This document shows positions 41,432-56,710 of a stretch of 64,000 nucleotides of DNA, piece after piece (the first letter of the stretch is position 1; each line of letters opens with the position of its first letter). Source of the stretch: Pelagibius litoralis. GTDB taxonomy: Bacteria > Pseudomonadota > Alphaproteobacteria > Kiloniellales > Kiloniellaceae. The notes below the pieces were generated by a model. It ran no database searches and was not told the DNA's origin. It saw only the letters and a list, made by a program, of their open reading frames with translations. The position numbers and the translations under genes are program-made. The stretch is taken from contig NZ_JAAQPH010000026.1 in NCBI RefSeq assembly GCF_011683915.1, positions 1 through 64,000 on the forward strand, written 5' to 3'.

Positions 41432-41843
41432 CCGCCCACTGAGGGGTTTTGTTCCCCGAGGTCCCGCAGCACCCGGTCGGCGGCAAGAATGCGAACCAGA
41501 CCAGGATTTCCGACCAACAGCGCTCCAGGCCAAGCTCCGGATAAGGGAAAACCCCGTCCGATGGGCAGCGGACGGGGTTTTCAAGGCTCACTAAAGGTCC
41601 GTCATCGTGGCTTGAGGGAGGACCTCCACAACAACGCCCTAAACATAGGGCCGGGCCGCCAAAACCACTGTGGGATTTGTCACACCCAGGGCAAGAAACT
41701 GCGAATTCGGCAGAATTCCTTACCCCTTGAGGCCTAAGCCACAAGTCCCGCGCCCTTCTCCGCCTGCTCACTCGCCCCGCCGACCGTCTGGGCCCAGACT
41801 TCCCAGGAAAGCCGTTTCGACCGCAATCCCGGGAGAATGCACC
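41432..41843. other. Intergenic region with terminator
   Basis: It holds the strong terminator at 41548-41581, a short GGGG/CCCC hairpin at about 41441-41458 and otherwise nothing convincing. The frame open from 41670 into the IalB gene lacks a start with a ribosome site before 41844. Confidence 0.5.
41548..41581 (+). terminator. Bidirectional Rho-independent terminator
   Basis: AAAACCCCGTCCG, loop of 8, CGGACGGGGTTTT: a perfect 13-base-pair stem whose ends give a T-run on either strand. It follows the Crp-type gene by 116 bases. Confidence 0.9.
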
Positions 41844-42335
41844 ATGAATAGGATGTTCAGCAGAGCCCTTTGCCTACCGCTCAAGCCCCTCGGGCTGGCC
41901 CTCGGCCTGGCTGCAGGCCTGACCGCCGGCAGCAGCCTCACGGCCACATCGGCCCTCGGTGACGTCGAACGCTGGAGCGTCGTCTGCGGTCAGTCGGCCT
42001 GCCTGGCCGATTACCAGGCACCGGGACTGCAGATCCTGATCGCACCCGAACGCGGCAGCCGGCGGCTGCGGGCCATCCTGCGCGTCAGCCACCAGGTGGG
42101 CGCCAACGCACCCATCGCGCTGCAACTCGACAGCGGCTGGACCACCAGTCTGCGGACCAGCGCCTGCAACGATCTGTTCTGCCAGGCTGCCGTCAGCTTG
42201 GAGGCGACCGACCAGGTTCTCGCCCGGTTCCGCAGGGACCTGCAAGGCGTGGCAGCCTATCGCGTGGCAGAGAAGACCGTCGTGGCCCGCTTTTCCTTGA
42301 AAGGCTTCAGCAATGCACTCAACCAGATCCAGTAG
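41844..42335 (+). CDS. IalB-like (invasion-associated locus B) periplasmic protein
   Basis: The 163-residue protein starts at the ATG 41844 after GGGAG. The signal peptide has a long hydrophobic core (PLGLALGLAAGLTAG). The IalB pattern is seen in the mature part: WSVVCGQSACLADYQ, LRAILRVSHQ, PIALQLDSGW, ACNDLFCQAAVSL with paired cysteines, and FSLKGFSNAL at the end. IalB proteins are periplasmic and of uncertain role. Its 3' end overlaps the start of the cytochrome gene by 23 bases. Confidence 0.75.
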   Translation: MNRMFSRALCLPLKPLGLALGLAAGLTAGSSLTATSALGDVERWSVVCGQSACLADYQAPGLQILIAPERGSRRLRAILRVSHQVGANAPIALQLDSGWTTSLRTSACNDLFCQAAVSLEATDQVLARFRRDLQGVAAYRVAEKTVVARFSLKGFSNALNQIQ

Positions 42336-42744
42336 CCGCTGCCCGACCGGGCAGTGGCCCACCCGACGGCAGAGCCGAAACCGCGGCGCCGCGAGAGATA
42401 CGCTGCTCCTGACCGGGATCGGCCTGGCAGCCGTCCTGTTCTGGGTCTGCCTGCCGCTTGTCGGCCCCGCGCGGGGCGACGAGATCACCGAGGGCCGCGA
42501 TCTGGTGGCCCAATACTGCCTGCGCTGCCATGCGGCGCCGGAAGCCCCCTACAGCACGACGGCGGCACCGACCCTGCGCGAGATGGCCCAGGCGGTAGAC
42601 TGGTCGACTCTGAGGTTACAGGCCTGGCTGGCGGCGGATCACCCGCCGATGCCGCGATTTAACCTGACCTCGGCAGAAATCTTCGCCCTGCGCAGTTACC
42701 TTTCCTCGATGAAGACCGACTCACTGCTGCACCCGGCGTTCTGA
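42313..42744 (+). CDS. Membrane-anchored or periplasmic mono-haem cytochrome c
   Basis: The 143-residue protein has an N-terminal hydrophobic segment (residues ~31-52) and one haem-binding motif CLRCH (Cys69, Cys72, His73). Met113 in PPMPRF is the likely sixth ligand, and LTSAEIFALRSYLSSM is the usual C-terminal helix. It resembles small class I cytochromes or sulfite-dehydrogenase-type subunits. The start overlaps the IalB gene; a later start would still keep the membrane segment. No catalytic partner gene is adjacent. Confidence 0.85.
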   Translation: MHSTRSSSRCPTGQWPTRRQSRNRGAARDTLLLTGIGLAAVLFWVCLPLVGPARGDEITEGRDLVAQYCLRCHAAPEAPYSTTAAPTLREMAQAVDWSTLRLQAWLAADHPPMPRFNLTSAEIFALRSYLSSMKTDSLLHPAF

Positions 42745-42755
42745 GGTCGCGGGCT

Positions 42756-43169
42756 ATGCAAGAAAAGACCCCCGCGCGTATGGCCCTGATATCGCTCGCC
42801 CTCGCCTCACCGCTTTGCCTTGGCGGCTGCGTGACCGGGCTGGTCGGCGCGGCCGGCATGGCCCTGAATGCCGTCACCGGCGGCAGCGGAGCGACGGCCA
42901 GTAAAGCCGGCAGCCCCGGCGGGCAGGGCGCCTTCGATGGAAACTCGCCCAGGGAACTGCAGGATGCCCTGGCACAGACCGACGACAGCACGTCGCCGCT
43001 CTGCCGCCGCCGGCTGGAAGCCTACCGGCAAAAACACGCCGCAACGGAGGACGAAGCGCAAGGGGAGGTACAGACAGTAAGCAAGCCCGGCAGGCGTTGC
43101 GGTCTGCAGCCTCTCTGCCTGCCCGGCGCGGAGCGCCCCACCGAGATGATGGTTTGCCGCAGCCAATAG
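42756..43169 (+). CDS. Predicted lipoprotein of unknown function
   Basis: The 137-residue protein has a type II signal peptide with lipobox LGGC. A Gly/Ala-rich stretch and a charged region containing ELQDALAQTDD follow, then a C-terminal part with four cysteines. No family recognised. It starts 11 bases after the cytochrome gene and is probably in its operon. A hairpin follows 43 bases after the stop. Confidence 0.65.
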   Translation: MQEKTPARMALISLALASPLCLGGCVTGLVGAAGMALNAVTGGSGATASKAGSPGGQGAFDGNSPRELQDALAQTDDSTSPLCRRRLEAYRQKHAATEDEAQGEVQTVSKPGRRCGLQPLCLPGAERPTEMMVCRSQ

Positions 43170-43212
43170 GCTGCTCATAGTTTGGAAGATCTCACGACAT
43201 CGACAAAATGAA

Positions 43213-43233
43213 ACGGCGGCCCGAAGCCGCCGT
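43213..43233. terminator. Hairpin between convergent genes
   Basis: ACGGCGGC, loop CCGAA, GCCGCCGT forms a perfect 8-base-pair stem between the lipoprotein and the HfaA-like gene, which converge here. It has no strong T-run, so termination efficiency is uncertain. Confidence 0.55.
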
Positions 43234-43281
43234 CGCATGTCTTTGCCCGGGCAGAGATCCCGTATAGGTATCCCGGGCCGG

Positions 43282-43722
43282 CTACTGGCTGGCGGCATCA
43301 CCATCCAGGATCTCGCTGACCTCGTCGGCTCCGTTGTTCTGGGTCTGGGTGACGTTGTTCTCAGCCGTCTGATCGCCGACCGCCTCTTGTCCTAGATTCA
43401 AGGCGCCATCCGAGTTGTTCAGGATGATGCAGGACGAATTGCCCCGCGCCCCGGCGCTGCCTTCGCCACCGCAGACAAGATAGGTCGTGGTGCCGGAAAC
43501 GGCGGCACTGCCGCTGCCGCTGTTGCCGTCCAGCAGGCCGGCGTCGACCTGCTTCATGAAGATCGCCATGCTGCCGCCGCTGCGCGCGGAAAAGCCCCAA
43601 GGCTGCTCATTCATCTGGGCCGATGCGTCACCGGCCAGGTGCGCCATCAGGGTAACCGCAAAGGCGGCGTAGACAAGAAAGGTCAGAACATCGACTGTAA
43701 AATGCATCAGGGTCGTTTTCAT
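43282..43722 (-). CDS. Secreted small subunit, HfaA/curlin-like candidate
   Basis: The 146-residue protein starts from the ATG at 43722 after AGGAGGTGGAG. The frame above it is open to 43974 but out of context. The signal peptide is cleaved after GDASA. The mature protein starts QMNEQPWGFS and is rich in Gly, Ser and Asn. It has two cysteines (VCGGEG, SCIILNN) and ends in an Asn/Gln/Thr stretch ALNLGQEAVGDQTAENN, reminiscent of one curlin-type strand repeat. It is the third gene of the operon led by the CsgG/HfaB gene, and its size equals that of Caulobacter HfaA (about 140 residues). The family link is inference. Confidence 0.6.
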   Translation of the reverse strand: MKTTLMHFTVDVLTFLVYAAFAVTLMAHLAGDASAQMNEQPWGFSARSGGSMAIFMKQVDAGLLDGNSGSGSAAVSGTTTYLVCGGEGSAGARGNSSCIILNNSDGALNLGQEAVGDQTAENNVTQTQNNGADEVSEILDGDAASQ

Positions 43723-43823
43723 CTCCACCTCCTGGAAACTGGGTCTGCCACCCCGGGATGAGAAGGGGATGAGGGAGCAGAAAATCTCTGCTCCCTCCCC
43801 GGGGTCGGTAGGCTTGCTTGTGG

Positions 43824-44957
43824 TTAGCTGCCGCCGCCGATTTCCGGCGTGCTGACAGTGATGGACAGGTTGTTGCCCACGGCCGTAGCGACCGAAGACA
43901 CCAGCGGACGCTCCAACGCACCAAGGTTGGTGTAGTTGTTGACCTCTACACCATAAGGCTGGGCGCCGAAGCAATCGAACTCACAAAAGTTCGTACCCAC
44001 CTGCGACAGCGCCGAAGTGTTGGCATAGGCGAACTGGGTGATGTCGCCCATGACCACGGCGTCGTCGGCGACCTTGGCCTCGACGGTGATCGCCTTGTTG
44101 TTGGCAACCGCCGTCGCGGCACTGTCAACCGAGGCGTTGAGGATGTCGTCCACCTTTGACACGGCAGAGATCTCAGCCGGCTCGATCACGTTGAAGAGCG
44201 CAGCCAGGGTCAGCAACGCTGCCGCATCGTGGAACTCGTTCCGGTTGTTGCCGAAGTCCGCGCCGTCCTCGATCGACGCGAGGCTGATACCGTCGCCGCC
44301 CGGCCCGATCGGCACCGGCGTCGGGCTCGGATCGTCGCCGAACTCGCCGGTGTTGAAGACATACTGGCCTTCGTGGATCTCGACCATGACATCGCTGTCG
44401 ATGCTGACGTTGTTGGCGATGGCCGTTGCGGTGCTGACCACCTCGGGCAACTCGGTCAGGGCATCGAAGGAGCCGGTCGGCTCGATCTCGATGTTCTCAA
44501 CCGGGATGTCCTCAAAGGTCATGACCACGTCCAGATCGTCCGTGCCCTCGTCGAGAGTGCCGGAGACATCGGAGGAGCTTCCCATCAGGTCGCCGCCCAG
44601 ATCGGCAACACCGGCCACGGTGCTGGGATCGGTCTCGTCGTCGGTCATGCCGTCCAGGGTGACCGTGAAGTCGACCGTGCCGGCACCGACGCCGCCGCCT
44701 TCGTTCGGTTGGTTGTTGTAGACGCCGTTCACGTAGGATTCGGCCGTCACGTCGCCGATGTAGATCTGCAGATCTTCCAGCAGTACCAGACCGACGGGAT
44801 CGATATCGACATCGATGTCGACATCCTTGGTCACATGCTCGATGACTTCCAGATCCCAGTGCCAGTCGACCTGATCGAAGGCCGCCGCCGGGGATACGGC
44901 AAGGCCAAGGGCGGCCACCGCAGCTCCACAGAGCAGTACAGACTTATTCGCTTTCAT
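43824..44957 (-). CDS. Secreted HfaD-like surface protein with ATAxxNN repeats
   Basis: The 377-residue protein has a cleavable signal peptide (ending SPAAA at residue 26). The mature part is acidic and beta-rich. Three copies of S-x-ATA(V/I)-x-NN-x-(S/A)-I occur at residues 174-187, 278-291 and 354-367, the last near the C-terminus. AAGGAGATAGAAG precedes the ATG, which overlaps the end of the CsgG/HfaB gene by 14 bases. Position after a CsgG-family pore and the repeats suggest an extracellular adhesin exported by that pore, like HfaD in the Caulobacter holdfast anchor. It has no other recognisable domain. Confidence 0.65.
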   Translation of the reverse strand: MKANKSVLLCGAAVAALGLAVSPAAAFDQVDWHWDLEVIEHVTKDVDIDVDIDPVGLVLLEDLQIYIGDVTAESYVNGVYNNQPNEGGGVGAGTVDFTVTLDGMTDDETDPSTVAGVADLGGDLMGSSSDVSGTLDEGTDDLDVVMTFEDIPVENIEIEPTGSFDALTELPEVVSTATAIANNVSIDSDVMVEIHEGQYVFNTGEFGDDPSPTPVPIGPGGDGISLASIEDGADFGNNRNEFHDAAALLTLAALFNVIEPAEISAVSKVDDILNASVDSAATAVANNKAITVEAKVADDAVVMGDITQFAYANTSALSQVGTNFCEFDCFGAQPYGVEVNNYTNLGALERPLVSSVATAVGNNLSITVSTPEIGGGS

Positions 44958-45774
44958 CTTCTATCTCCTTTAAGTATCCAGCGAAGTGATCGGTCTCCAC
45001 GAGATCGCAGCCTTGGATCGCGGGCAGACCCAGAAAGTCCGTCATAAGAAGGTAGACACCCATCTCCACGACGGATCTGACGCCGAGTTGCAACGGCTCG
45101 TTGCGAATCATTCCAGCGTCAAATTCAATGAGGGTATTACCGAAGAAGCGGAAGACGTTGGCCTCCACTTCGAAGCCGTAAATCTGCTTCTGCAGCGAGG
45201 TTGCATAGGCAACCGAGAAGTTGCGCGCGTTGACCACACGCAGGTCCAGCGCCACGTTGATCACAACCGTGCGCCCGCCGCCGCCAATACCGTTGACGAA
45301 GAGCCGGGCACCGCCGGAGGTAATGTTGTAGTTCAGCTCGGTCAGCGCACCGACGACGATGAAGTCGCTGGCGGGAAGCTCATACTCCGACAATCCGCGA
45401 CCGAGACGGCCCTGCTCGGAGAGCTTCATCTCCGCCAGGGGAATCCGCAGATCGAGCCGCTCGATCAACCGCGCCTTGCGGGTTTTCCAGAGCGCGGAGA
45501 TGACCATCTCCGACACGCCCTGACTGAGGGCGTGGCCGTTGTCGTCATAGTTCACCTGCCCGGTCTTGTCGGCGACCTCACCGACCGAGAACACCGGCAG
45601 GTTGGCGCCTTCAGATTGGGCCAGGCCCGAGAGGCACTGGCTATAAGGCGTGTGGTTGCTGGTAACCGGAAAACTGAAGACCGGCGCCACACCGGTATCC
45701 GGAAACGGTGGGCCGGCACAGGCACTAAGCGCCATCGCGGCCGAAACTACGTAGGCGCAAGCTTTTGCTCGCAT
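44944..45774 (-). CDS. hfaB: CsgG/HfaB-family outer membrane secretion lipoprotein
   Basis: The 276-residue protein (282 from a second ATG at 45792 after GGAGA) has a type II signal peptide with lipobox LSAC (Cys19). Family features are LPVFSVGEVADKTGQ, VSEMVISALWKTRKARLIERLDL, EYELPASDFIVVGALTELNYNI, GGGGRTVVINVALDLRVVNARNF and SLQKQIYGFEVEANVFRFFG, closely following CsgG/HfaB. These proteins form a nonameric outer-membrane channel for unfolded curlin-like or holdfast-anchor subunits. It is the first gene of the three-gene minus-strand operon and is divergent from a LuxR-type regulator. Confidence 0.8.
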   Translation of the reverse strand: MRAKACAYVVSAAMALSACAGPPFPDTGVAPVFSFPVTSNHTPYSQCLSGLAQSEGANLPVFSVGEVADKTGQVNYDDNGHALSQGVSEMVISALWKTRKARLIERLDLRIPLAEMKLSEQGRLGRGLSEYELPASDFIVVGALTELNYNITSGGARLFVNGIGGGGRTVVINVALDLRVVNARNFSVAYATSLQKQIYGFEVEANVFRFFGNTLIEFDAGMIRNEPLQLGVRSVVEMGVYLLMTDFLGLPAIQGCDLVETDHFAGYLKEIEDESE

Positions 45775-46103
45775 GATCCATCCCCTATGCATCGATCTGT
45801 CTCCATCAATCCGGCGGCAATACATTTCGCCCGGAACCAATGGTTGGAGATGGTACGAGAATTATTTAATGAATAAAGAGAGCGAAGGAGTATTTTAAAA
45901 TAAACAAGCATTAATACTTTCACAAATAGGTAACTACATAGATATAAGTCACCTCAGTATTACCACCCTATACGAAAGTATTACTATGCCTGCGCGAAAG
46001 ATTGTGAGAAAGCCCCGTGCTAGTCTCTCGGAAATCGTGGCGCAACAGCCGCCGGAACGGCCCGAACCGGGCCATTACAGGTCACTCTGGAGGTTCACCC
46101 ATC
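45775..46103. promoter_or_regulatory. AT-rich divergent control region of the CsgG/HfaB locus
   Basis: The region is distinctly AT-rich between 45840 and 45990. AGTATTAC occurs twice in direct orientation at 45956-45963 and 45977-45984, 21 bases start to start (two helical turns). The hexamer AGTATT also occurs at 45889 and, inverted, at 45913-45918. A further GTATTAC lies at 46863, upstream of the next secreted-protein gene. These are candidate binding sites for the LuxR-type regulators. Clear -35/-10 pairs were not assigned. Confidence 0.5.
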
Positions 46104-46850
46104 ATGTACGACCGCAACACTCAGCCGCCAGGCCCGCAGGCAGAGACTGATCACCGCCGCTGCGCTTTGTTGGCGTCGGGGATCGATACCGCACCCCTTT
46201 TGGATGCCCTGCGGCGGGTGCCGAACACCCGCATCGGCGACATCTGCATCTTTCCCGCCAACGGGCTCGGCGAGCCGGAGGCCGACTATCTGATCCTGGC
46301 GGTAGAGGACGGCAGCCGGCTGGGGCGCCTCGAACAACAGATCGACCGCTGGTCGGGCGAGAAAACCCGCGTGCTGCTGGCGGTTCCGGAATCGAAATGC
46401 GCCTTTCTGGGCGACCTGGCCCAGCGCGCCGATGGCCTGATCCTTCTCGACGCGGGCCTGGACTACCTCGAGGAAAGTCTCAGCCTCGCGCGCGAAGGCT
46501 ATTCGGTCATGCCGGCCCCGCGCGACGGCGGTTCCGGAACCTATTGCCACCTCGATATGCTCTGCCGCCTCAACGACAGCGAGCAGGCCATCCTCAAACT
46601 GTTGGCCATCGGCGACAGCAACCGCAGCATCGCCGAGCAGTTGAACGAGAGCGAGACAAGGGTGAAGTCGCTGGTGCGCGCGATCCTGGTGAAACTGGAA
46701 TGCCGCAACCGGACAGAAGCCGCGGTCCTGGCGGCGACAGTCCTGCTGCCGCTGCAGGAAAGTCTGCACAAGAATGATGCCGGCGACGGTAAGGGACCGA
46801 CGTCTACCCCCAATGGAACACCGACCAAGGGGTCTGACGACTGGCCCTGA
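46104..46850 (+). CDS. LuxR-family regulator with degenerate receiver domain
   Basis: The protein has 248 residues from the ATG at 46104 (GGAGG 10 bases upstream). The N-terminal half has the length and strand/helix order of a receiver domain but no phosphoacceptor aspartate at the expected strand end (YLILAVEDGSR). The C-terminal LuxR-type helix-turn-helix is at about residues 155-215 (LNDSEQAILKLLAIGDSNRSIAEQLNESETRVKSLVRAILVKL). This resembles CsgD- and VpsT-type biofilm regulators that do not depend on phosphorylation. It is divergent from the hfaB operon. Confidence 0.8.
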   Translation: MYDRNTQPPGPQAETDHRRCALLASGIDTAPLLDALRRVPNTRIGDICIFPANGLGEPEADYLILAVEDGSRLGRLEQQIDRWSGEKTRVLLAVPESKCAFLGDLAQRADGLILLDAGLDYLEESLSLAREGYSVMPAPRDGGSGTYCHLDMLCRLNDSEQAILKLLAIGDSNRSIAEQLNESETRVKSLVRAILVKLECRNRTEAAVLAATVLLPLQESLHKNDAGDGKGPTSTPNGTPTKGSDDWP

Positions 46851-47009
46851 GGCTATATGGGGGTATTACCTCTTCTTGCGCATTGAAACCAACGGCCATT
46901 CCCCGAAAGTGATAAGTTACACGCCCTAGCTGCGGCAGGTTTGCTCTTTGGACCGGCACCCCGCCTGGACGCCTTGGCGTAACTCTTCGCTCACTATCGG
47001 AGTTCCGGA

Positions 47010-47582
47010 ATGGCACATCATCATCAGTCCCGCACCTCTTCCAAACGGCCGGCAAGTCGTTTTGTCCGCTATGGCTTCGGCGCCCTTGTTGCCGTTGTTG
47101 CAGCGGCCGGCGCCGCACCGGAGGCCGAGGCGCAGTGGAACAATAAACCCTTTTCGTTCGGCGGTGGCGGTGCCGGCATGAGTTTCGCCGGCCGTCAGGC
47201 AATCCTGCAGCAGGAAATCCTGGGACTGACGCCCGACAATCTGCGGCGCGGATCGAACGGCGCCCTGGTCGATGTTTCGGAGGGACCGGGATCGACCGCT
47301 ATCGTCAACGCGCAGGCCGCTGCGTTTCTGCCGGGCGCCGCCGGCCGCGGCAGCAGCTTTCGTCGCAGCCCTGCCGATGGTGCGGGCGTTTTCAATCCCT
47401 TCTTCGCACCGAAGGGCGGCGGCGGGTCTTCGACGCCCAGCTTCCTGACAAGCCTGAAAACCTCGGCCACCATCGCCTCTTGGACAAACATGGTGACGGC
47501 GGGTTCCAGCAGGGGCGCGGTCGTGATTTATCCGGGAAGCGGCAGCTCGATCGATGCCTGGACCGCTCAAGTCGGCGGTTAG
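47010..47582 (+). CDS. Secreted protein sharing the mature N-terminus of the HfaA-like subunit
   Basis: The 190-residue protein has a signal peptide (residues 1-41) after a His/Ser-rich head, cleaved after EAEA. The mature protein begins QWNNKPFSFGGGGAGMSF. Compared with QMNEQPWGFSARSGGSMA of the 43282-43722 product, it keeps Gln, Asn, Pro, an aromatic, Phe, a Gly pair and Met in the same order. The rest is rich in Gly, Ser and Ala with no cysteine. Both LuxR-type genes flank it. It may be a third substrate of the CsgG/HfaB pore, which is inference. No known family recognised. Confidence 0.65.
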   Translation: MAHHHQSRTSSKRPASRFVRYGFGALVAVVAAAGAAPEAEAQWNNKPFSFGGGGAGMSFAGRQAILQQEILGLTPDNLRRGSNGALVDVSEGPGSTAIVNAQAAAFLPGAAGRGSSFRRSPADGAGVFNPFFAPKGGGGSSTPSFLTSLKTSATIASWTNMVTAGSSRGAVVIYPGSGSSIDAWTAQVGG

Positions 47583-47645
47583 CTGCAACGGCTGAATTCG
47601 GCAGCGGGTAGGCGCGAAGGAAGTATCCGAAAATCCAGGAAGCCG

Positions 47646-47673
47646 ACGGTCAGCCGCTTTGAGGGCCGACCGC
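47646..47673. terminator. Hairpin between the secreted-protein and LuxR genes
   Basis: CGGTCAGCC and GGCCGACCG pair with one mismatch across a loop of about 8 bases, between two convergent genes. There is no T-run, so this is only a possible terminator. Confidence 0.35.
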
Positions 47674-47749
47674 CGGTGGATAGGGAAGCGTCACGACCAG
47701 CAATCCCAGCGAGGCTGCAGGCCGGCCCGGAGAGCCAGAGACCAATCAA

Positions 47750-48475
47750 TCAGCCGGTCAGCTGTGAAAGGGCTGGCGCCCCGTTGGAAGCGGGAAACAT
47801 AGGATCGGCCCCACCCCCGAAAGGGAGACCCGGGGCCATTCCATGATTGAGCGCCCAGATTGCCGCTTGAGTCCTGTTGCCCGCCTTGATCTTACGCAGC
47901 AGGCTTTTCATATGCACCTTGACCGTCGCCTCGGTGATGTGGAGACGGTTTGCGATGACTTTGTTGGCATCGCCGTAAACCAGGCAGCGCAGGATCTCCT
48001 GCTCGCGATCGGAAAGACCATATTCCTCAATGCGCGCGTTGCCGACCGGTGCGACGCCGACGGCGCCGTTGATCAAGGCGGTTGCCAGATCCGTCGGCAT
48101 CACCTTCTGACCCATCATGGCCAGCTTCAAGGAATGGATCAGCGCTTCGAGCGAAATGTCCTTCAGCAGAAAGGCATCGGCCCCGGCGTTCAGGCAGGCG
48201 GCCAGAGTCCTCGGGTCCCGCTCATCGGTCAGAACGACAATCGGCGTGTCAGGCAGGGCGTCCTGCAAGTGGCGGAGGTCTTCGACCAGCAGCGAGACAT
48301 CGCCGCGCAACTCAATGAGGATCAGTTGCAGCTCATCCGGCTCAACGGCCTCATTGATCGCAGAGACGCTGGCCACTTCATGGCAAACGTTGAAGGAACT
48401 CCCTCTCAGCAGGCTTTTCAGCCCTTCGAGGAACAGGCGGTTTCGCCCTACGAGTAGCGTATTGACTTCAGACAT
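47750..48475 (-). CDS. NarL/CsgD-type LuxR-family regulator with atypical receiver
   Basis: The 241-residue protein starts from the ATG at 48475 after GGGAGAG. Receiver domain residues 1-120: the acidic pair near the N-terminus is replaced (TLLVGRN) and the phosphoacceptor position is Glu55 (LILIELRG), while Thr83 and Lys105 are kept. A Glu there can mimic the phosphorylated state. The C-terminal LuxR helix-turn-helix (LSDREQEILRCLVYGDANKVIANRLHITEATVKVHMKSLLRKI) is complete. It resembles CsgD. It is the second such regulator in this locus and is convergent with the secreted-protein gene. Confidence 0.85.
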   Translation of the reverse strand: MSEVNTLLVGRNRLFLEGLKSLLRGSSFNVCHEVASVSAINEAVEPDELQLILIELRGDVSLLVEDLRHLQDALPDTPIVVLTDERDPRTLAACLNAGADAFLLKDISLEALIHSLKLAMMGQKVMPTDLATALINGAVGVAPVGNARIEEYGLSDREQEILRCLVYGDANKVIANRLHITEATVKVHMKSLLRKIKAGNRTQAAIWALNHGMAPGLPFGGGADPMFPASNGAPALSQLTG

Positions 48476-48676
48476 AACGGTGCTCTCCCTTCCCTTTCGC
48501 CCACCAACCCCTCGGCTAGACAAAAAAGTCTCCCCGGTCCATCGGCTCCGCCTCCACGACGGATGGGACCAACGTCCGTTAACAAAGAAGGTAAAGCTCA
48601 TACAGGGAAGGGTCTGTGAGGATTACCACAGAAGGGGGAACTGTAATTTCATCCAATCATAACAATGATTTAGAAG

Positions 48677-48705
48677 ATTACAGCGCTATTACAGCACTAT
48701 TAAAG
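48677..48705. repeat. 11-base tandem direct repeat at the end of the NicO gene
   Basis: ATTACAGCGCT (48677-48687) and ATTACAGCACT (48688-48698) are followed by ATTAAAG (48699-48705), an 11-base period close to one helical turn. It includes the TAA stop of the minus-strand transporter gene and lies about 200 bases upstream of the LuxR gene start. Confidence 0.6.
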
Positions 48706-49710
48706 AGGGCCTGTAGCCCGCAGCGACACGATAAAAAGCCCGCTGCCGAGAAGGATCAACAGTACCGCGCCGCCGAAACCAAGCAGTTGATAGAAGGTCT
48801 CGACCCAGCGGACTCTCCCGCCCATAACCGTGACCGCCAGACGCTTTGACCAGAGCGTGAGCAAGGCAAGCGCGGAAACCGTCATCGCCGTTCCAAGCGA
48901 CATGGCGGCTGTCGCGGCAATGCCCGCCAGAAGAACGCCCTGGGCCAGGGCAAACAGCAACACCAATACCGCACCGCTGCAGGGCCGCAGGCCGACGGCG
49001 GCGACGACTCCCCAACCCGCGGACAGGAAACCCCGGCGCGACAGCAGCGCCGGGTCCGGCGCATGATTGTGTCCGCATTGGGCAGGGTCATGGCCGTGAT
49101 CATGACCTTCCGTCTCTTCACCGGTCCCCTTGGCACCCCGCCAGGACCGCAGCAGCGACCACAGGAGCCATAGGCCCACCAGGGCGACCAGCGCATAGCT
49201 TGCGCTTTCCAGCAGACCCACCGAAGCGGTCACCCGCAATCCGCTCATATCGAGCAGCACCGCCAGCAGGCCGACCAGGACGACGGCTGTGAGGCCCTGG
49301 AGAAACGACGCCAGAAAAGCCAGGACAATGCCGCGCCTGACCACAGACTCATTGGCCAGCAGATAGGTGGAGATCACCGCCTTGCCGTGCCCTGGGCCGA
49401 CCGCATGGAAGACCCCGTAGAGAAAACTCAGGGCAACCAGGAAGAGCGCCGCCTCGCCCGCGGCATCACCCTTAAGGGCACGGACGGCACCGGCCAGGCG
49501 GCGGTGCAGGTCGCCCTGCATCTGGTGGACGTACAGCAGAAGGGTCTGCCAGGGGCCGGCGGATGCCGGTTGGCCGGCCGCGGCTTCCGGCGGCGGTACC
49601 AGCGGCGTCTGTGCCGCCGCCTGCGGGCCGCCCCAAAGCACACAAAAGACCAGCAGCAACACGGCGCAAAGGCCGGCCTGTCTTGGAATCCAACGAAAGG
49701 CTGGCGTCAT
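48700..49710 (-). CDS. NicO/RcnA-type nickel/cobalt (divalent metal) transporter
   Basis: The 336-residue membrane protein has a signal-like first segment, about six further membrane segments and the family motif HAVGPGHGKAVISTYLLAN. A cytoplasmic His-rich loop (GHDHGHDPAQCGHNH) is typical of RcnA-like exporters and nickel permeases. GLRPCSGAVLVLLFAL is the second conserved block. The ATG at 49710 overlaps the stop of the DUF1007 gene (ATGA). Earlier in-frame starts overlap that gene and are unlikely. The pairing with DUF1007 is common and suggests an uptake or export pair for Ni, Co or Zn. Confidence 0.85.
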   Translation of the reverse strand: MTPAFRWIPRQAGLCAVLLLVFCVLWGGPQAAAQTPLVPPPEAAAGQPASAGPWQTLLLYVHQMQGDLHRRLAGAVRALKGDAAGEAALFLVALSFLYGVFHAVGPGHGKAVISTYLLANESVVRRGIVLAFLASFLQGLTAVVLVGLLAVLLDMSGLRVTASVGLLESASYALVALVGLWLLWSLLRSWRGAKGTGEETEGHDHGHDPAQCGHNHAPDPALLSRRGFLSAGWGVVAAVGLRPCSGAVLVLLFALAQGVLLAGIAATAAMSLGTAMTVSALALLTLWSKRLAVTVMGGRVRWVETFYQLLGFGGAVLLILLGSGLFIVSLRATGPL

Positions 49711-50387
49711 TGAATAACCGCTGGGCTGGCGCAGCTGAGCGTTGCGCGGGAAGCGAACCGGGCCGCAATGCTCTGGCCTCCGGCATCGAAAATATCGGTG
49801 TCGGCTAGATTGAGGGTTTCGGTGTCTGCGCCCCTGGTCAGGCGCAGCGCGCACCCCTCCGGCGCGCCATCGGAGAGTATGACGGGCGTCTCCCGCCCAG
49901 GCTCAATCGAGATGTAGAAGCTGGGATCGTAGCTGGAAAAGGAGAACTGCGCGGTACGCGGATCGACAGGCACGCTCAGGGGCAACACAAAGCGCAGACT
50001 GAGGATGCCGTCGTCAAACCGGGAACTGTAATCGCGGACCTTCTCATAGGCCGCATCGACACCGTCCACCTTGACGTATGTGAAGTAGCGATAGCTCTCC
50101 AAGGACGTCACGTTCAGTTCGGCAAGCGGCCTCAGTTCGGCCTCGTCCAACTTCCCGTCCGCGTTCTTGTCCAGATCCTCTACCGCAAAGAGGCTGTAGA
50201 ACTCGTCAAAATGCCACTCGACCTCAAGGGCGGTGACATGGTGATTGTCATCAAAGATCAGGCGGACCACGGAATCGATCCAGACATGAGGGTGCGCCAC
50301 CGAGCGATTCGCCGTTAAAGACAGCATCACGAAAACCGCCAGGGCAGCGCCTAAAACTCTTTTCCACCGCGCAGATCGCTGCGTCAT
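49707..50387 (-). CDS. DUF1007 periplasmic protein with EF-hand-like loop
   Basis: The protein has 226 residues from the ATG at 50387 (GGAGA 9 bases upstream). The signal peptide ends near SVAHPHVWID. The HPHVWID start of the mature part is the family hallmark and may bind metal. Residues ~76-90 read DLDKNADGKLDEAEL, a canonical EF-hand calcium loop. DUF1007 proteins are annotated as periplasmic parts of metal transport systems and usually precede a NicO-type transporter, as here. Translation is coupled to that gene. Confidence 0.85.
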   Translation of the reverse strand: MTQRSARWKRVLGAALAVFVMLSLTANRSVAHPHVWIDSVVRLIFDDNHHVTALEVEWHFDEFYSLFAVEDLDKNADGKLDEAELRPLAELNVTSLESYRYFTYVKVDGVDAAYEKVRDYSSRFDDGILSLRFVLPLSVPVDPRTAQFSFSSYDPSFYISIEPGRETPVILSDGAPEGCALRLTRGADTETLNLADTDIFDAGGQSIAARFASRATLSCASPAVIQ

Positions 50388-50502
50388 CTCGACTTTCTCC
50401 AAGATATTGGCCAGCTTAGCCTGGGTCCGACGCCGGAGAAAGTCTGTCGCACAACGGCCCTAACGACGGGTTAACGGATCTTCGCGAAGCCGCGCCAAGC
50501 GA

Positions 50503-52066: not shown

Positions 52067-52393
52067 ACAGTATGTAAGCCGGCCCGGTGCGTTGGGAGGC
52101 GCACCGGCTCGGTCATTCGATTTTTGGGGCAACCGTTAAAACAGACGGAATCTTACTTAAGGTCAATTTCACTGGGGCGGGCAGATTTGGTGGCAGGACC
52201 ATCACAACAATCGACAGTCGTGGACTTGCGAAAAAACGCAGCTTTCGCCTCGGGTCCGGCTGTACCTATCTATTCTTTTCTCTGGTGTGCCCCTCGGCTA
52301 CTCTGCCTTCCTGCTGACTTGGCAGCCTGCCGCCGGCCGGCTCGCCCGGTTCCGGCGGACAAGCAAGACAAACGCGTCACAGGAGGCCTCGCA
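52067..52393. other. Intergenic region before the hybrid kinase
   Basis: It contains the terminator at 52084-52125. The kinase frame is open back to 52124, but the 90 extra residues are compositionally unlike a domain and lack a ribosome site. No clear promoter read. Confidence 0.45.
52084..52125 (+). terminator. Rho-independent terminator of the DUF1127 gene
   Basis: CCGGTGCG (52084-52091), loop TTGGGAGG, CGCACCGG (52100-52107), with a T-run (TTTTT) about 13 bases further. It begins 17 bases after the DUF1127 stop. Confidence 0.6.
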
Positions 52394-55300
52394 ATGGCGC
52401 GGGCGACACCCGAAAGCCCCCTCGCCTTCGACCTGCCTGGCGGGGCGGAACGCCAGTTGCTCGATCTGGTGGCGGCCCGCCTCTCTGTCGTTCTCTATCG
52501 CGGACAACTCGCCAAGGGAAAACTGAACCTCGACTTCGTGAGCCCAGGCGCGGAACAACAGATCGGTAAGAGCGCCGAACAGCTCTGCGGCCGGGAAAAC
52601 GCCCTGGCCGAGCTCATTCACCCCGACGACCGCGTGGCCTACGAAGAGGCGCTTGCGGCAGTCCTGGAAAGCGGCGCCGCCAGTGTCGACTACCGTGTCG
52701 CGGTCGAAACGGGGGTCTATGCCTGGCGGCGCGATGAGATGTCGCTGGCCGCAAGTTCCGGCAAGGCCGCGAGCGACCCGGCGATCAACGGCTGCATTGT
52801 CAGCATCGAGCAGGAAAAAGACACCGAACCCGACCCGGACGCCTTGGCCGCACAGCGCGCGGCCATCATCGACCAAGCCGCTCATCCCATCGTGCTGAGC
52901 GACCGGGAGGGGCGGATCGCTGAAATCAATCGCGCGGCAGTCGCCCTTTTCTTTGCCGACGGACAAAGCAGCCGGGACGCTTCGAGAGTCAGCGACCTCT
53001 TCGATCCCGACAGTCGCAGCAGCTTTCTGGAAGCGGTGGATCTGCTGCTCCAGACAGCCGGAGAGCAAGCCGCCGGCAAAACCCTCACCCTGATCGCGCG
53101 CCACAGCGACGGCCGCGACCTGCCGGTCGAAGTCATGCTCTCGGTTATCGATCTGGGCGAAGACCGTGCCATTGTTACCGAGCTGAGGGATATCAGCGAG
53201 CGCGTCACCGCGGAGGCAGCGATCAGCCACCTCTGGCAGCTTCTCCAGGATGCGGTCGAAAGCATTCCCAACGGCTTTGCCATTTATGACGTGGATGACA
53301 AGCTGGTGCTGTGCAACGCGGCTTTTTCCGAGATCTACGATCTGACGCCGCAAGCCATGGTGGGCAGTTCCACCTACGACAACTACTGCGATGTCCTGCC
53401 GCAACTGCAGAGCATAGACGGCGAAATCATAGAGGGCCTTTCGATTACACCCGAACTGTGGTTGAGCCACGTCCGGCAGTCGGAAAGCGAGCCCGTAGAG
53501 TTTCAGTTGAAGAGCGGTGCCTGGAAACAGACGACAACCCATCCCATCCACGGTGGCGGGCGGGTTTATGTACGCACCGATATCACTAAGCTGAAGGAAG
53601 CGGAGATATCGCTTCGCAAAAGCGAGCAGCAGTTCCGCAGCCTCGTCGAGAACAACCCCTTCCCACTCTGGCTCACCGATGTCGACACCGGTATCGTGCT
53701 GTACCATAGCCCTGCAGCGGCAGCGTTGCTTGGTTATGACTGGCCAGTCACCCAGCATTACAAATCCGAACGCGCCTATGCCGACCCCGCAGACCGTCGG
53801 CACTGTACCGACGAGCTGCTGGCCGCAGGCCGCCTGGATGGCCGCGAAACTCTTTTCCGGAAAGCCGACGGCACGGTGTTCTGGGGCGCCGTATTTTCAC
53901 GACTCTGCGAACATGACGGGAAAACCATTGCCATCGGCGGCGTGGTCGATCTGACCGAACAGCGCGACAAGGAAACCCAGCTCCGCCAAGCCCAGGAAAC
54001 GCTGCAGGACGCAGTGGAGTCTCTCTCCGAGGGTTTTGCGCTCTACGACGCCGAAGACCGCCTGGTCACCTGCAACCAGCGCTACCGCGAATTCAACAAA
54101 CTGAGCAACGATGTCCTGGAACCTGGCGTGCGCTGGGCCGACTTTATCCGAACCGGCGCCGAGCGGGGCCAGTACGTCGGCGCGGAAGGCCGGGTCGAAG
54201 AATGGCTCGAGGAGCGCAGAAACCTGCGCCTCCAGTTCGGCACCGACTTGGAGTTTCAGCAGGCCGACGGGCGTTGGTTCCAGTTCACCAACCAACCGAC
54301 ACGCCAGGGCGGCATCGTGGTGACCCGCACCGACATCACCAATCGCAAGGAGATGGAACGGGCGCTGCGGGAGAGTGAGAACCTGGTGCGCAGTATCCTG
54401 GAGGCTTCGCCGGTCCCTGTGGCAATGACGCGGGCCAGTGATGGCCTGATCATCTACGAAAGCCCGGCTTCGCGCGCCCTCTTCGGACAGATGCAGCGGT
54501 CCGGCGAAGCGACCTACATAGCCGACCTTTATGTCGATCCGCGCGATCGCCAGCGTTACCTCACGCTGCTGCGCGAACGGCGCATGCTGCAAGGTTTCGA
54601 GGTCGAGCTTCGCAAAGCCGACGGTGGGCATGTCTGGGCCTCCCTGACCGCCAGCCTGATCGAATACCAGGGCGAGGAGATGATCGTTGCCAGCGCCTAT
54701 GACCAGACCGAGAGGCGCGCGGCCGAGACCGAGATGGCGCGGCATCGCGAAGCGCTCTACCAGAGCGAAAAACTGAGCGCCCTCGGCTCCCTCCTCGCCG
54801 GGGTTGCTCATGAGCTCAACAATCCGCTTTCCGTCGTCGTCGGCCATGCGCAGCTCTTGAAAGAAACCGCCAGTGATGCCCGTATCATCGAGCGGGCGAC
54901 AAAGATCGGTAATGCCGCAGACCGCTGCTCGCGCATCGTCAAATCGTTCCTGGCCATGGCCCGTCAACGGCCGCCGGAACGCAGGGTCGTCGACCTGTGC
55001 GACATCGTCCAGGCCACCTTGGATGTCACGGGCTACTCGCTGCGCACCGCCAATATCGACATCATCGTCGATATCGACCCCAAGGTACCGCCGGTCTGGG
55101 CCGACCCCGACCAGATGAACCAGGTGGTCACCAACCTTACAGTCAACGCACAGCAAGCCATGATGGAGGTTCGCGAGAGGCCGCGGGAACTGAAGATTAC
55201 CGCCCGCTACGATAACCATCGCCAGGAAGTCGTTCTCGAAGTCGCTGACACCGGGACGGGCATTCCAGAGGAAATCTGCAGCCGCGTCTTTGAACCCTTC

Positions 55301-55921
55301 TTCACCACCAAGGAAATCGGCGAAGGCACCGGCATCGGCCTTGCCGTGAGTCACCGGATCGTCGAAGCCCACGATGGGCGCATTCGCGTCGACAGTGAAG
55401 TCGGTCGCGGCTCCACCTTTACCGTCAGCCTGCCGGCGAGCTGGGAGAAAACGCGCGAACCGTCGAGCAACAAGAAGACCGTTGCAGGATGTCTGGGCGC
55501 AAAAGCCAGCATCCTGATCATCGACGACGAACCGGATGTGGCACAGATGCTGTGCGATATCCTCGCAACTCAGGGGCACCGTGTCGAAACAGCCGAGTCC
55601 GGCGAAAAGGCGCTGACGATGCTGGACGCCAGCAGCTTCGATGTCATCCTGAGCGATGTGCGGATGCCGCATCTTGACGGCCCCAGCCTTTATGCTGCGC
55701 TTGAAAGGCGCGACCCGGATCTGTTGAAGCGGACGGCCTTCGTTTCAGGCGATACGCTGAGCCCTTCGGCCCGGGCGTTTCTGAAGCGGGTTCACCGGCC
55801 TTTCATAGAGAAGCCCTTTACCCTGGAAGAAGTCCGCGATCTGGTCGACCGGATATTGGGCCGGGAGCAGGAACAGCGTTCGAAGGCAGCAACCGCGGCC
55901 GTGGAATCGGACGAAACATGA
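52394..55921 (+). CDS. Soluble hybrid histidine kinase with six PAS domains and a receiver
   Basis: The 1175-residue protein starts from the ATG at 52394 with AGGAGG 7 bases upstream. PAS-like domains lie at about 25-140, 155-270, 283-400, 410-525, 537-652 and 660-772. Two of them ([32 protein letters not shown]) are PAS-7-type near-duplicates. The histidine kinase core follows: His806 in [15 protein letters not shown]-box [11 protein letters not shown] boxes [10 protein letters not shown] and [13 protein letters not shown]-terminal receiver has Asp1088 in VILSDVRMP and a conserved Lys. There is no membrane segment, so it senses an internal signal. An OmpR-type response regulator gene follows after 66 bases. 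Confidence 0.92.
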
Positions 55922-55987
55922 AAAGCGGGATATGGGTAGCGTCTAATGTTGAACACTGTTGAGAGAGCTGGTTAGGGAGCCGTTGAA

Positions 55988-56710
55988 ATGCAGGGGCGAA
56001 AGCACATCGTCGTCGTCGATGACGAGCCGGGAATTCGCGAAACCATCGAGGAGTATCTGGAGCTTCACGACTTCCAGGTAACCGCCGTCAGCGGCGGCGA
56101 GGGCCTACGCGAGGTGATCAACGAAAAGGACGTCGATCTGGTCCTCCTGGATATTCGCATGCCCGGCGAAGACGGACTCTCCCTTGCGCGCTATCTGCGC
56201 GAAAGCACCGAGGTGGGCATTATCATGCTGACGGCGGCGGGCGAGGTGGTCGACCGTATCGTCGGCCTGGAAATGGGCGCCGATGACTATCTGGCCAAAC
56301 CCGTCGATCTGCGCGAGCTCCTGGCCCGCATCAAGGCGGTGCTGCGACGCGCCTCGGAACAAGAAGATTCCGAGGCAACCCGCACCGACAACGCTGCGCG
56401 CGTCGTTCACTTCGGGGATTTCACTCTGAACCTGGAGTCCCACAAGCTCTTCGAGCCCTCCGGTGCGGAAATTCCCCTGACCAGCATGGAATTCGACCTC
56501 CTGAAGGCCTTCGCCGATCACCCGAACCACGTGCTCACCCGCGACCAACTGCTGAACCTTGCACACAATCGTGATTGGGAGCCCTTCGATCGCTCGATCG
56601 ACATTCGTATCGCGCGCATTCGGCGCAAGATCGAAGGCGATCCGGCAAAACCGCAGGTGATCAAGACCGTACGCGGCGCCGGCTACATCTTCTCCACCGC
56701 AAAGACCTGA
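55988..56710 (+). CDS. OmpR/PhoB-family response regulator
   Basis: The 240-residue protein has a receiver domain with Asp11-Asp12, phosphoacceptor Asp55 (LVLLDIRMPG), and Thr and Lys in MLTAAG and DYLAKP. The C-terminal winged helix is of the Trans_reg_C type: LTSMEFDLLKAFADHPNHVLTRDQLL, IDIRIARIRRKI and VIKTVRGAGYIF. GGGAGCCGTTGAA precedes the ATG. It is the likely output partner of the hybrid kinase just upstream. Confidence 0.93.
   Translation: MQGRKHIVVVDDEPGIRETIEEYLELHDFQVTAVSGGEGLREVINEKDVDLVLLDIRMPGEDGLSLARYLRESTEVGIIMLTAAGEVVDRIVGLEMGADDYLAKPVDLRELLARIKAVLRRASEQEDSEATRTDNAARVVHFGDFTLNLESHKLFEPSGAEIPLTSMEFDLLKAFADHPNHVLTRDQLLNLAHNRDWEPFDRSIDIRIARIRRKIEGDPAKPQVIKTVRGAGYIFSTAKT

Follow-up and report, generated by a model that had tools for sequence, protein, structure and literature searches.

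What kind of system does a CsgG/HfaB-type gene locus of Pelagibius litoralis encode: curli, the protein anchor of a holdfast, or something different from both? The locus lies in a stretch of 64,000 nucleotides (assembly GCF_011683915.1, contig NZ_JAAQPH010000026.1; here called the window). A sequence-only reading had described six genes at positions 43282-48475: a CsgG/HfaB-family lipoprotein gene (here G) heading an operon with two genes for secreted proteins (D and A1), followed by a divergent LuxR-type gene (LuxR1), a third secreted protein (A2) and a second LuxR-type gene (LuxR2). We found that the locus is a real, conserved and little-described branch of HfaB-type export systems with new parts. 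Compared with the holdfast anchor HfaABD, new are the extra genes, the unusual pair of regulators and the absence of a fixed tie to the holdfast exporter. The overall interpretation of the sequence-only reading is supported, with the corrections and qualifications given below. In the open-access literature, searched by titles and the first parts of abstracts, no description of this variant was found among the matches listed.

The pore gene and its conserved neighborhood

All six genes are present as open frames, with G as the first gene of the G-D-A1 operon. G and D overlap by 14 bp, the start of D lying inside the end of G, and A1 follows about 100 bp further on. LuxR1 is divergent from G and is followed, on its own strand, by A2; LuxR2 and A2 are convergent.

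That G might belong to another lipoprotein family is contradicted by Pfam, NCBIfam, the solved CsgG structure and a phylogenetic tree. G matches the Pfam family CsgG (PF03783) with 4.8e-24 and 85.3 bits, well above the cut-off of 20.8. Among the NCBIfam equivalogs it prefers HfaB (NF037935; 1.1e-46, 159 bits) to CsgG (60 bits), but it misses the curated HfaB cut-off of 300, which speaks against full membership in HfaB. Residues 83-270 of the longest frame, which reaches position 45840, match the solved CsgG structure with 9e-17. The lipobox cysteine is invariant in all 16 aligned G sequences, and the 6.03 Mb genome has no CsgG-family match besides G. The HfaB model has matches at E 0.001 in 42 of 385 genomes of the class, 19 of them above the cut-off, four at 219-234 bits and nine, including the genome studied here, at 140-180 bits. 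A profile built from 16 G proteins gives 417-528 bits for the genes of this group and at most 192 bits for the other matches listed. With this profile, G of the group was found in 11/61 genomes of the order and in 4/398 genomes of a sample of the phylum.

In a tree of 58 CsgG-family proteins, a long branch with full support (100/100, length 3.29) divides the group from true HfaB and the intermediates. Monophyly of the G group was considered and rejected, as the group does not form one side of any branch. When other CsgG-family proteins serve as the root, HfaB is nested in the group and joined to the G protein of locus L098 at 95/95; the forks joining it to L041 and L040 are weaker. The nesting is uncertain because the branches are long, and the tree is compatible with an origin of HfaB inside this G group.

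We collected 34 G genes at 32 loci, including the locus of the window. The named hosts are Alphaproteobacteria except for one Micavibrio (Bdellovibrionota by taxonomy), and the remaining ones belong to the order or class of the window. Profiles recognized D and an A1-type gene in 30 of the 32 loci each; of the misses, one for D and both for the A1-type gene fall at contig ends. A2 was recognized in 25 loci, and all loci except L043 and L044 (30/32) have one or more GerE-type regulators. For 19/34 G genes, the divergent neighbor within 1 kb is of the LuxR type. The near-identical loci L029, L030, L032 and L092 were excluded from the de-duplicated locus, GTATTAC and motif counts; L028 was additionally excluded from the clustering and from the clade-only profile counts. 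BLAST clustering of open reading frames (ORFs) of at least 80 amino acids (aa) in the 27 de-duplicated loci confirmed that the neighbors occur together with G. D was found in 24 loci, A1-type genes in 26 (two disjoint clusters), A2-type genes in 21 and regulators in 26; as those of L044 are not of the GerE type, 25 loci remain with GerE-type ones. G itself is present in 27/27 by construction because the loci were collected through G.

The conserved unit is larger than the six genes. The bounds 43282-48475 turned out to be too narrow, since genes for an IalB-like protein, for a small c-type cytochrome and for a lipoprotein of a new family, at 41844-43169, belong to it as well. According to iterated profiles, the lipoprotein gene is found in 15/32 loci of the clade, the IalB-like gene in 10/32 and the cytochrome gene in 8/32, in each case five of them from the genus of the window. 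The clusters of the 27 loci contain the lipoprotein in 11, the IalB-like protein in 7, a Sel1-repeat protein in 7 and the cytochrome in 5 loci. No further ORF cluster was found in three or more of these loci, and no polysaccharide gene was recognized within the conserved block. Plain BLAST on a smaller set of loci found, outside the genus, the lipoprotein in L031, L034, L041 and L040, the IalB-like protein in L039, L034 and L031 and the cytochrome in L034 and L039. The cytochrome scores 24.9 bits against Cytochrome_CBB3, under the cut-off of 27.

In one genome (G072), five G genes were found (L100, L101, L102), three of them in one tandem array. This array at L100 has the order G-D-A, G-D-A, D-A, G-D-A and stands behind three regulators and A2.

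Table 1. Positions of the genes and sequence elements of the locus in the window.
Feature	Position	Strand	Description
IalB-like protein	41844-42335	+	IalB-family secreted protein, accessory; Pfam IalB 7.2e-9
Cytochrome c	42313-42744	+	small c-type cytochrome with CxxCH, accessory; Cytochrome_CBB3 2.6e-5
Small lipoprotein	42756-43169	+	conserved Cys and CLPG motif; no Pfam/NCBIfam family above cut-off
Terminator-like hairpin	43212-43234	-	3' of the G-D-A1 operon; 10-pair stem and T-rich tail
A1	43282-43722	-	HfaA-like secreted subunit
D	43824-44957	-	HfaD-like secreted protein, three ATAxxNN repeats
G	44944-45774	-	CsgG/HfaB-family outer-membrane lipoprotein; signal peptide, lipobox ..ALSAC
GTATTAC box 1	45957-45963	+	between G and LuxR1
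GTATTAC box 2	45978-45984	+	21 bp from box 1
LuxR1	46104-46850	+	GerE-type regulator, degenerate receiver-like N-domain; GerE 4.4e-11
GTATTAC box	46863-46869	+	upstream of A2
A2	47010-47582	+	second secreted protein, distant A1 relative
LuxR2	47750-48475	-	NarL-type regulator, atypical receiver; GerE 4e-19, Response_reg 7.7e-10
GGATTACCA element	48620-48628	+	upstream of LuxR2

Several observations were made beside the system itself. The Sel1-repeat protein is located at L097:2906-3880 and at six other loci (7/27). ORFs of 1265 aa and then 240 aa at 52124-56710 of the window adjoin the locus in congeners also; the shorter one is presumably response-regulator-like. The terminator-like hairpin belongs to a class that is weak alone, with 8 such sites in the window against 5.9 expected. 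An Rfam scan of the window at gathering scores gave no matches, and a sigma-70 promoter scan of 41500-48700 gave none. HfaB-like genes of the intermediate score class are located at L046:5315-11486 (Shimia sp.) and at L085-L087. At L046, secreted proteins of 214 and 1499 aa without a Pfam match stand beside the HfaB-like gene. At L087:2252-2902, a cytochrome c related to the product of 42313-42744 is found; an HfaB-intermediate gene is nearby, but the other parts of the system are missing there.

Secreted proteins resembling HfaA and HfaD

The relation to a system of the HfaA/HfaD type, proposed from the sequence, has profile support. By hhalign, A1 aligns with HfaA (probability 93, E 2.5e-7, 37 columns) and D with HfaD (probability 91, E 9e-7, 57 columns of the repeats), and the control pairs D-A1, D-HfaA and HfaD-HfaA reach 6-17. 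True HfaA was represented by five and true HfaD by four ORFs, assigned by position; the remaining HfaB loci gave no clear HfaA or HfaD candidate and were excluded. In addition, a clade-only A1 profile matches, with 4.7e-10, the ORF that directly precedes true HfaB in L082. It is the only non-clade match below 0.05, with L081 next at 0.063.

Two motif expressions are shared as well, both defined post hoc on sequences that had already been inspected. Q-x3-[GA]-x-[QN]-x-[AS] occurs in 27/30 A1 and 4/5 HfaA sequences, with totals of 28 and 4 against shuffle means of 2.4 and 0.3. A-[TSV]-A-x-[GAS]-N occurs in 27/29 D and 3/4 HfaD sequences, with totals of 69 and 4 against shuffle means of 0.46 and 0.16. 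The three ATAxxNN repeats noticed in the sequence are present in D, at residues 177, 281 and 357. A1 had been described as an Asn/Gln-rich, curlin-like subunit. Mature A1 does consist of Asn and Gln to 16%, but it reached no curlin-repeat model and has no match in Pfam or NCBIfam.

The third secreted protein, A2, is present as described, corrected to a distant relative of A1. A profile of A2 alone finds A1 of the window with 2.3e-7 and 6/33 A1 sequences at 1e-3; in the reverse search, the A1-only profile recovers 11/25 A2 sequences. Scores from an iterated A-type profile (5e-23 and 2e-5 for true HfaA; more than 100 bits for A1-A2) were withdrawn, since they were inflated by the profile having absorbed its targets L082 and L079.

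A1 and A2 carry a short Pro-aromatic segment right after the signal peptide (for example MNEQPWGF and WNNKPFSF), and some HfaA proteins do likewise. In CsgA, an N-terminal segment has a role in export. We suggest that the Pro-aromatic segment may act as an export signal in a role comparable to that of the CsgA segment. The structure model of D (predicted local distance difference test (pLDDT) 68) shows predominantly beta structure around the repeats. When solved structures were searched with profiles of D and of A1/A2, no credible match emerged.

Regulators, GTATTAC boxes and the genus

LuxR1 and LuxR2 had been described as CsgD-like. This holds for the architecture but not for the CsgD equivalog of NCBIfam, for which the two regulators score 28.7 and 66.4 bits and both miss the cut-off of 250. 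Canonical receivers contain an acidic pair and the phospho-accepting Asp. According to alignments, the receiver of LuxR2 is without the usual acidic pair and has Glu in place of the phospho-Asp in the genus of the window, with Asp kept in some relatives, and the N-domain of LuxR1 is more degenerate. A Pfam search at E 1 gave no receiver-domain match for LuxR1.

The heptamer GTATTAC, chosen by inspection, occurs four times in the window against 0.61 expected, a number reached by 0/100 shuffles. Two of these sites are upstream of G, one is upstream of A2 and one lies within G. In the 28 de-duplicated loci it occurs 15 times in 32.6 kb of promoter regions and 8 times in 317 kb elsewhere, and this promoter count is the highest of 420 letter permutations.

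Comparison within the genus shows that boxes and system occur together. G is carried by five of eight congeneric genomes. The site was recovered in all eight, next to the same genes, which we take to be of the Crp and AGE types. In the five carriers the genes of the IalB-like protein, cytochrome, lipoprotein, A1, D, G, LuxR1, A2 and LuxR2 are all present at the site, and GTATTAC boxes are located upstream of both G and A2 in 5/5. In the three non-carriers (G003, G004, G007) the site retains only LuxR1 and LuxR2, as open frames with 60-73% identity; A2 is missing from it, and so are the six genes that lie across LuxR1 from A2 in the carriers. G, A2 and the IalB-like gene were not found genome-wide; D, A1, the lipoprotein, the cytochrome and GTATTAC were not found in the fetched regions of the three non-carriers (6 to 19.5 kb). 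The joint absence of seven genes argues for one unit which is split by a regulator. In contrast to GTATTAC, the GGATTACCA element is found upstream of LuxR2 in 8/8 congeners, carriers and non-carriers alike. A pair of genes (384 and 231 aa; window 48700-50402) upstream of LuxR2, presumably NicO-like and DUF1007-like, is missing at this place in G007, and the 231-aa protein was not found anywhere in the G007 genome.

Export through G and its alternatives

The best explanation of the locus, and a rather probable one, is an HfaB-type pore which exports HfaD- and HfaA-like surface subunits. As judged from homology, G would be an HfaB-type, CsgG-like lipoprotein pore of the outer membrane and would export D, A1 and A2 after their delivery by Sec. 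The repetitive, beta-rich and HfaD-like D, the HfaA-like A1 and A2 would then form a surface anchor or a short fiber. Accessory parts would be the small lipoprotein and the IalB-like protein, perhaps with the cytochrome, and they may take over the work of CsgE and CsgF in curli. LuxR1 and LuxR2, with their atypical receivers, would use the shared GTATTAC boxes, whichever of the two binds them, to regulate both the G-D-A1 operon and A2, which stands apart from it.

Several results weigh against this explanation. Concerning the subunits, the hhalign links are short, with A2-HfaA reaching a probability of 46 only. The clade-only A1 profile directly reached one true HfaA and no other, and the clade-only D profile found no true HfaD. 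A2 contains neither shared motif (0/21 sequences), and the curlin-repeat model (PF07012) gives at best 10 bits, on D and not on A1, against a cut-off of 20.7. The D model has no match in the PDB at E 0.001 and the A2 model is uninformative (pLDDT 44), so that no fold supports the formation of a fiber. Concerning regulation, the box was selected post hoc. The genus of the window supplies 8 of the 15 promoter sites, outside the genus seven sites lie in promoters and seven elsewhere (about tenfold by length), and 19/28 loci are without any GTATTAC. The regulators had been described as encoded in place; they do stand at the locus, but they persist without the system in three congeners and are therefore not purely dedicated to it. 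A LuxR2 tree does not tell one loss from one gain, so the absence in the congeners is counted as a single event.

Alternatively, the locus could encode nothing more than a holdfast anchor, HfaABD in the form it takes in this lineage, and the exopolysaccharide that it holds would be produced by genes located elsewhere. We consider this unlikely, although it is the strongest of the alternatives. HfaABD of Caulobacter crescentus (PMC6707917) likewise combines a CsgG-family lipoprotein with HfaA-like and HfaD-like partners, and ATA(V/I)GN-type motifs are common to D and HfaD, as is Q-x3-G-x-Q-x-A to A1 and HfaA. The nesting of true HfaB in the rooted tree also favors a holdfast anchor. In contrast, the gene order is G-D-A here and A-B-D in HfaABD. 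The present locus adds a second A-type gene, two LuxR-type regulators, the lipoprotein, the IalB-like protein and the cytochrome c; PMC6372794 describes an additional holdfast anchor factor, HfaE. G falls short of the HfaB cut-off by nearly half, with the long, fully supported branch in between. By profiles, neither LuxR-type genes nor the lipoprotein were found at 13 HfaB or HfaB-intermediate loci (L077-L089), where the flanks were mostly about 4 kb instead of 6 kb. The HfaB-intermediate loci share with the present one the HfaB-like gene and, in L046 and L086, a small secreted protein directly upstream, but they differ by a large secreted protein downstream (1499 aa in L046, at least 676 aa in L085) and by the LuxR pair, which was not found there by profiles.

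The holdfast exporter HfsD belongs to the Poly_export family. With Caulobacter among the positive controls, 10 of 12 tested carriers have one to five Poly_export genes, as a holdfast anchor would suggest, whereas the nearly complete carriers G038 (100%) and G349 (99%) gave no match at E 0.001. The holdfast exporter is therefore not obligatory. The single Poly_export gene of the own genome is located on another contig (L113, G000:C22:278000-297900), within an exopolysaccharide cluster that also contains genes of a WcaJ-type transferase, a Wzy_C ligase and a BBP2_2 barrel; a link between the G system and this exopolysaccharide may exist here. An attempt to recognize hfsDAB in the Poly_export neighborhoods of four genomes with true HfaB and of the genome studied here (ORF comparison and family scans of ten ORFs) found only general exopolysaccharide genes, so that the Poly_export count alone was used.

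A divergent curli system is highly improbable. Curli (csgBAC/csgDEFG) resemble the locus in their CsgG-family pore and in GerE-type regulators at the locus, as with csgD. PMC3521004 describes alphaproteobacterial curli systems without csgC, csgD and csgE, about half of the genera lacking csgF too, and counts curli systems in only 171 of 601 CsgG Pfam matches. As the sequence-only reading had it, the window's system is without csgE/F-like genes: with E. coli as positive control, CsgE was found in 0/17 carrier genomes and CsgF in 1/17. The lone CsgF, in G151, is about 40 kb away from the G gene of that genome and adjoins a different HfaB/CsgG-type match, so that no CsgF is linked. Given the alphaproteobacterial curli just cited, the missing CsgE and CsgF count little, and for this reason the missing curlin repeats weigh more against curli. 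None of the secreted proteins has a curlin repeat above the cut-off and an HfaD-like protein is present instead; the preference of G for the HfaB model and the failure of the regulators at the CsgD cut-off differ from curli as well.

That G acts in the envelope independently of the adjacent secreted proteins, these taking another route, would fit the poorly known roles of CsgG-family proteins beyond curli and holdfast, and export through G is itself our inference, but the D and A1-type genes beside G in 24/27 and 26/27 loci and the joint multiplication of G, D and A in tandem in G072 leave this idea little room.

Beyond export of surface subunits by an HfaB-type pore, we tentatively propose, at slightly less than even chances for the whole, that the locus represents a third kind of alphaproteobacterial CsgG-superfamily surface system, which would be neither curli nor holdfast anchor. 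It would perhaps be the ancestral stock of HfaB and would build an appendage from HfaA/HfaD-like subunits, with its own periplasmic and lipoprotein helpers. An atypical pair of regulators would act through the boxes, these being system-specific in this genus, and some lineages would carry arrays of pore-plus-subunit sets.

The branch contains numerous related sets of pore and subunits, a lipoprotein that is a candidate helper, a further helper of the IalB type, and congeners with and without the set at one and the same site, which makes the parts list and the operator testable. The branch also bears on the question of whether the holdfast anchor derives from a protein surface system that was not tied to a holdfast.

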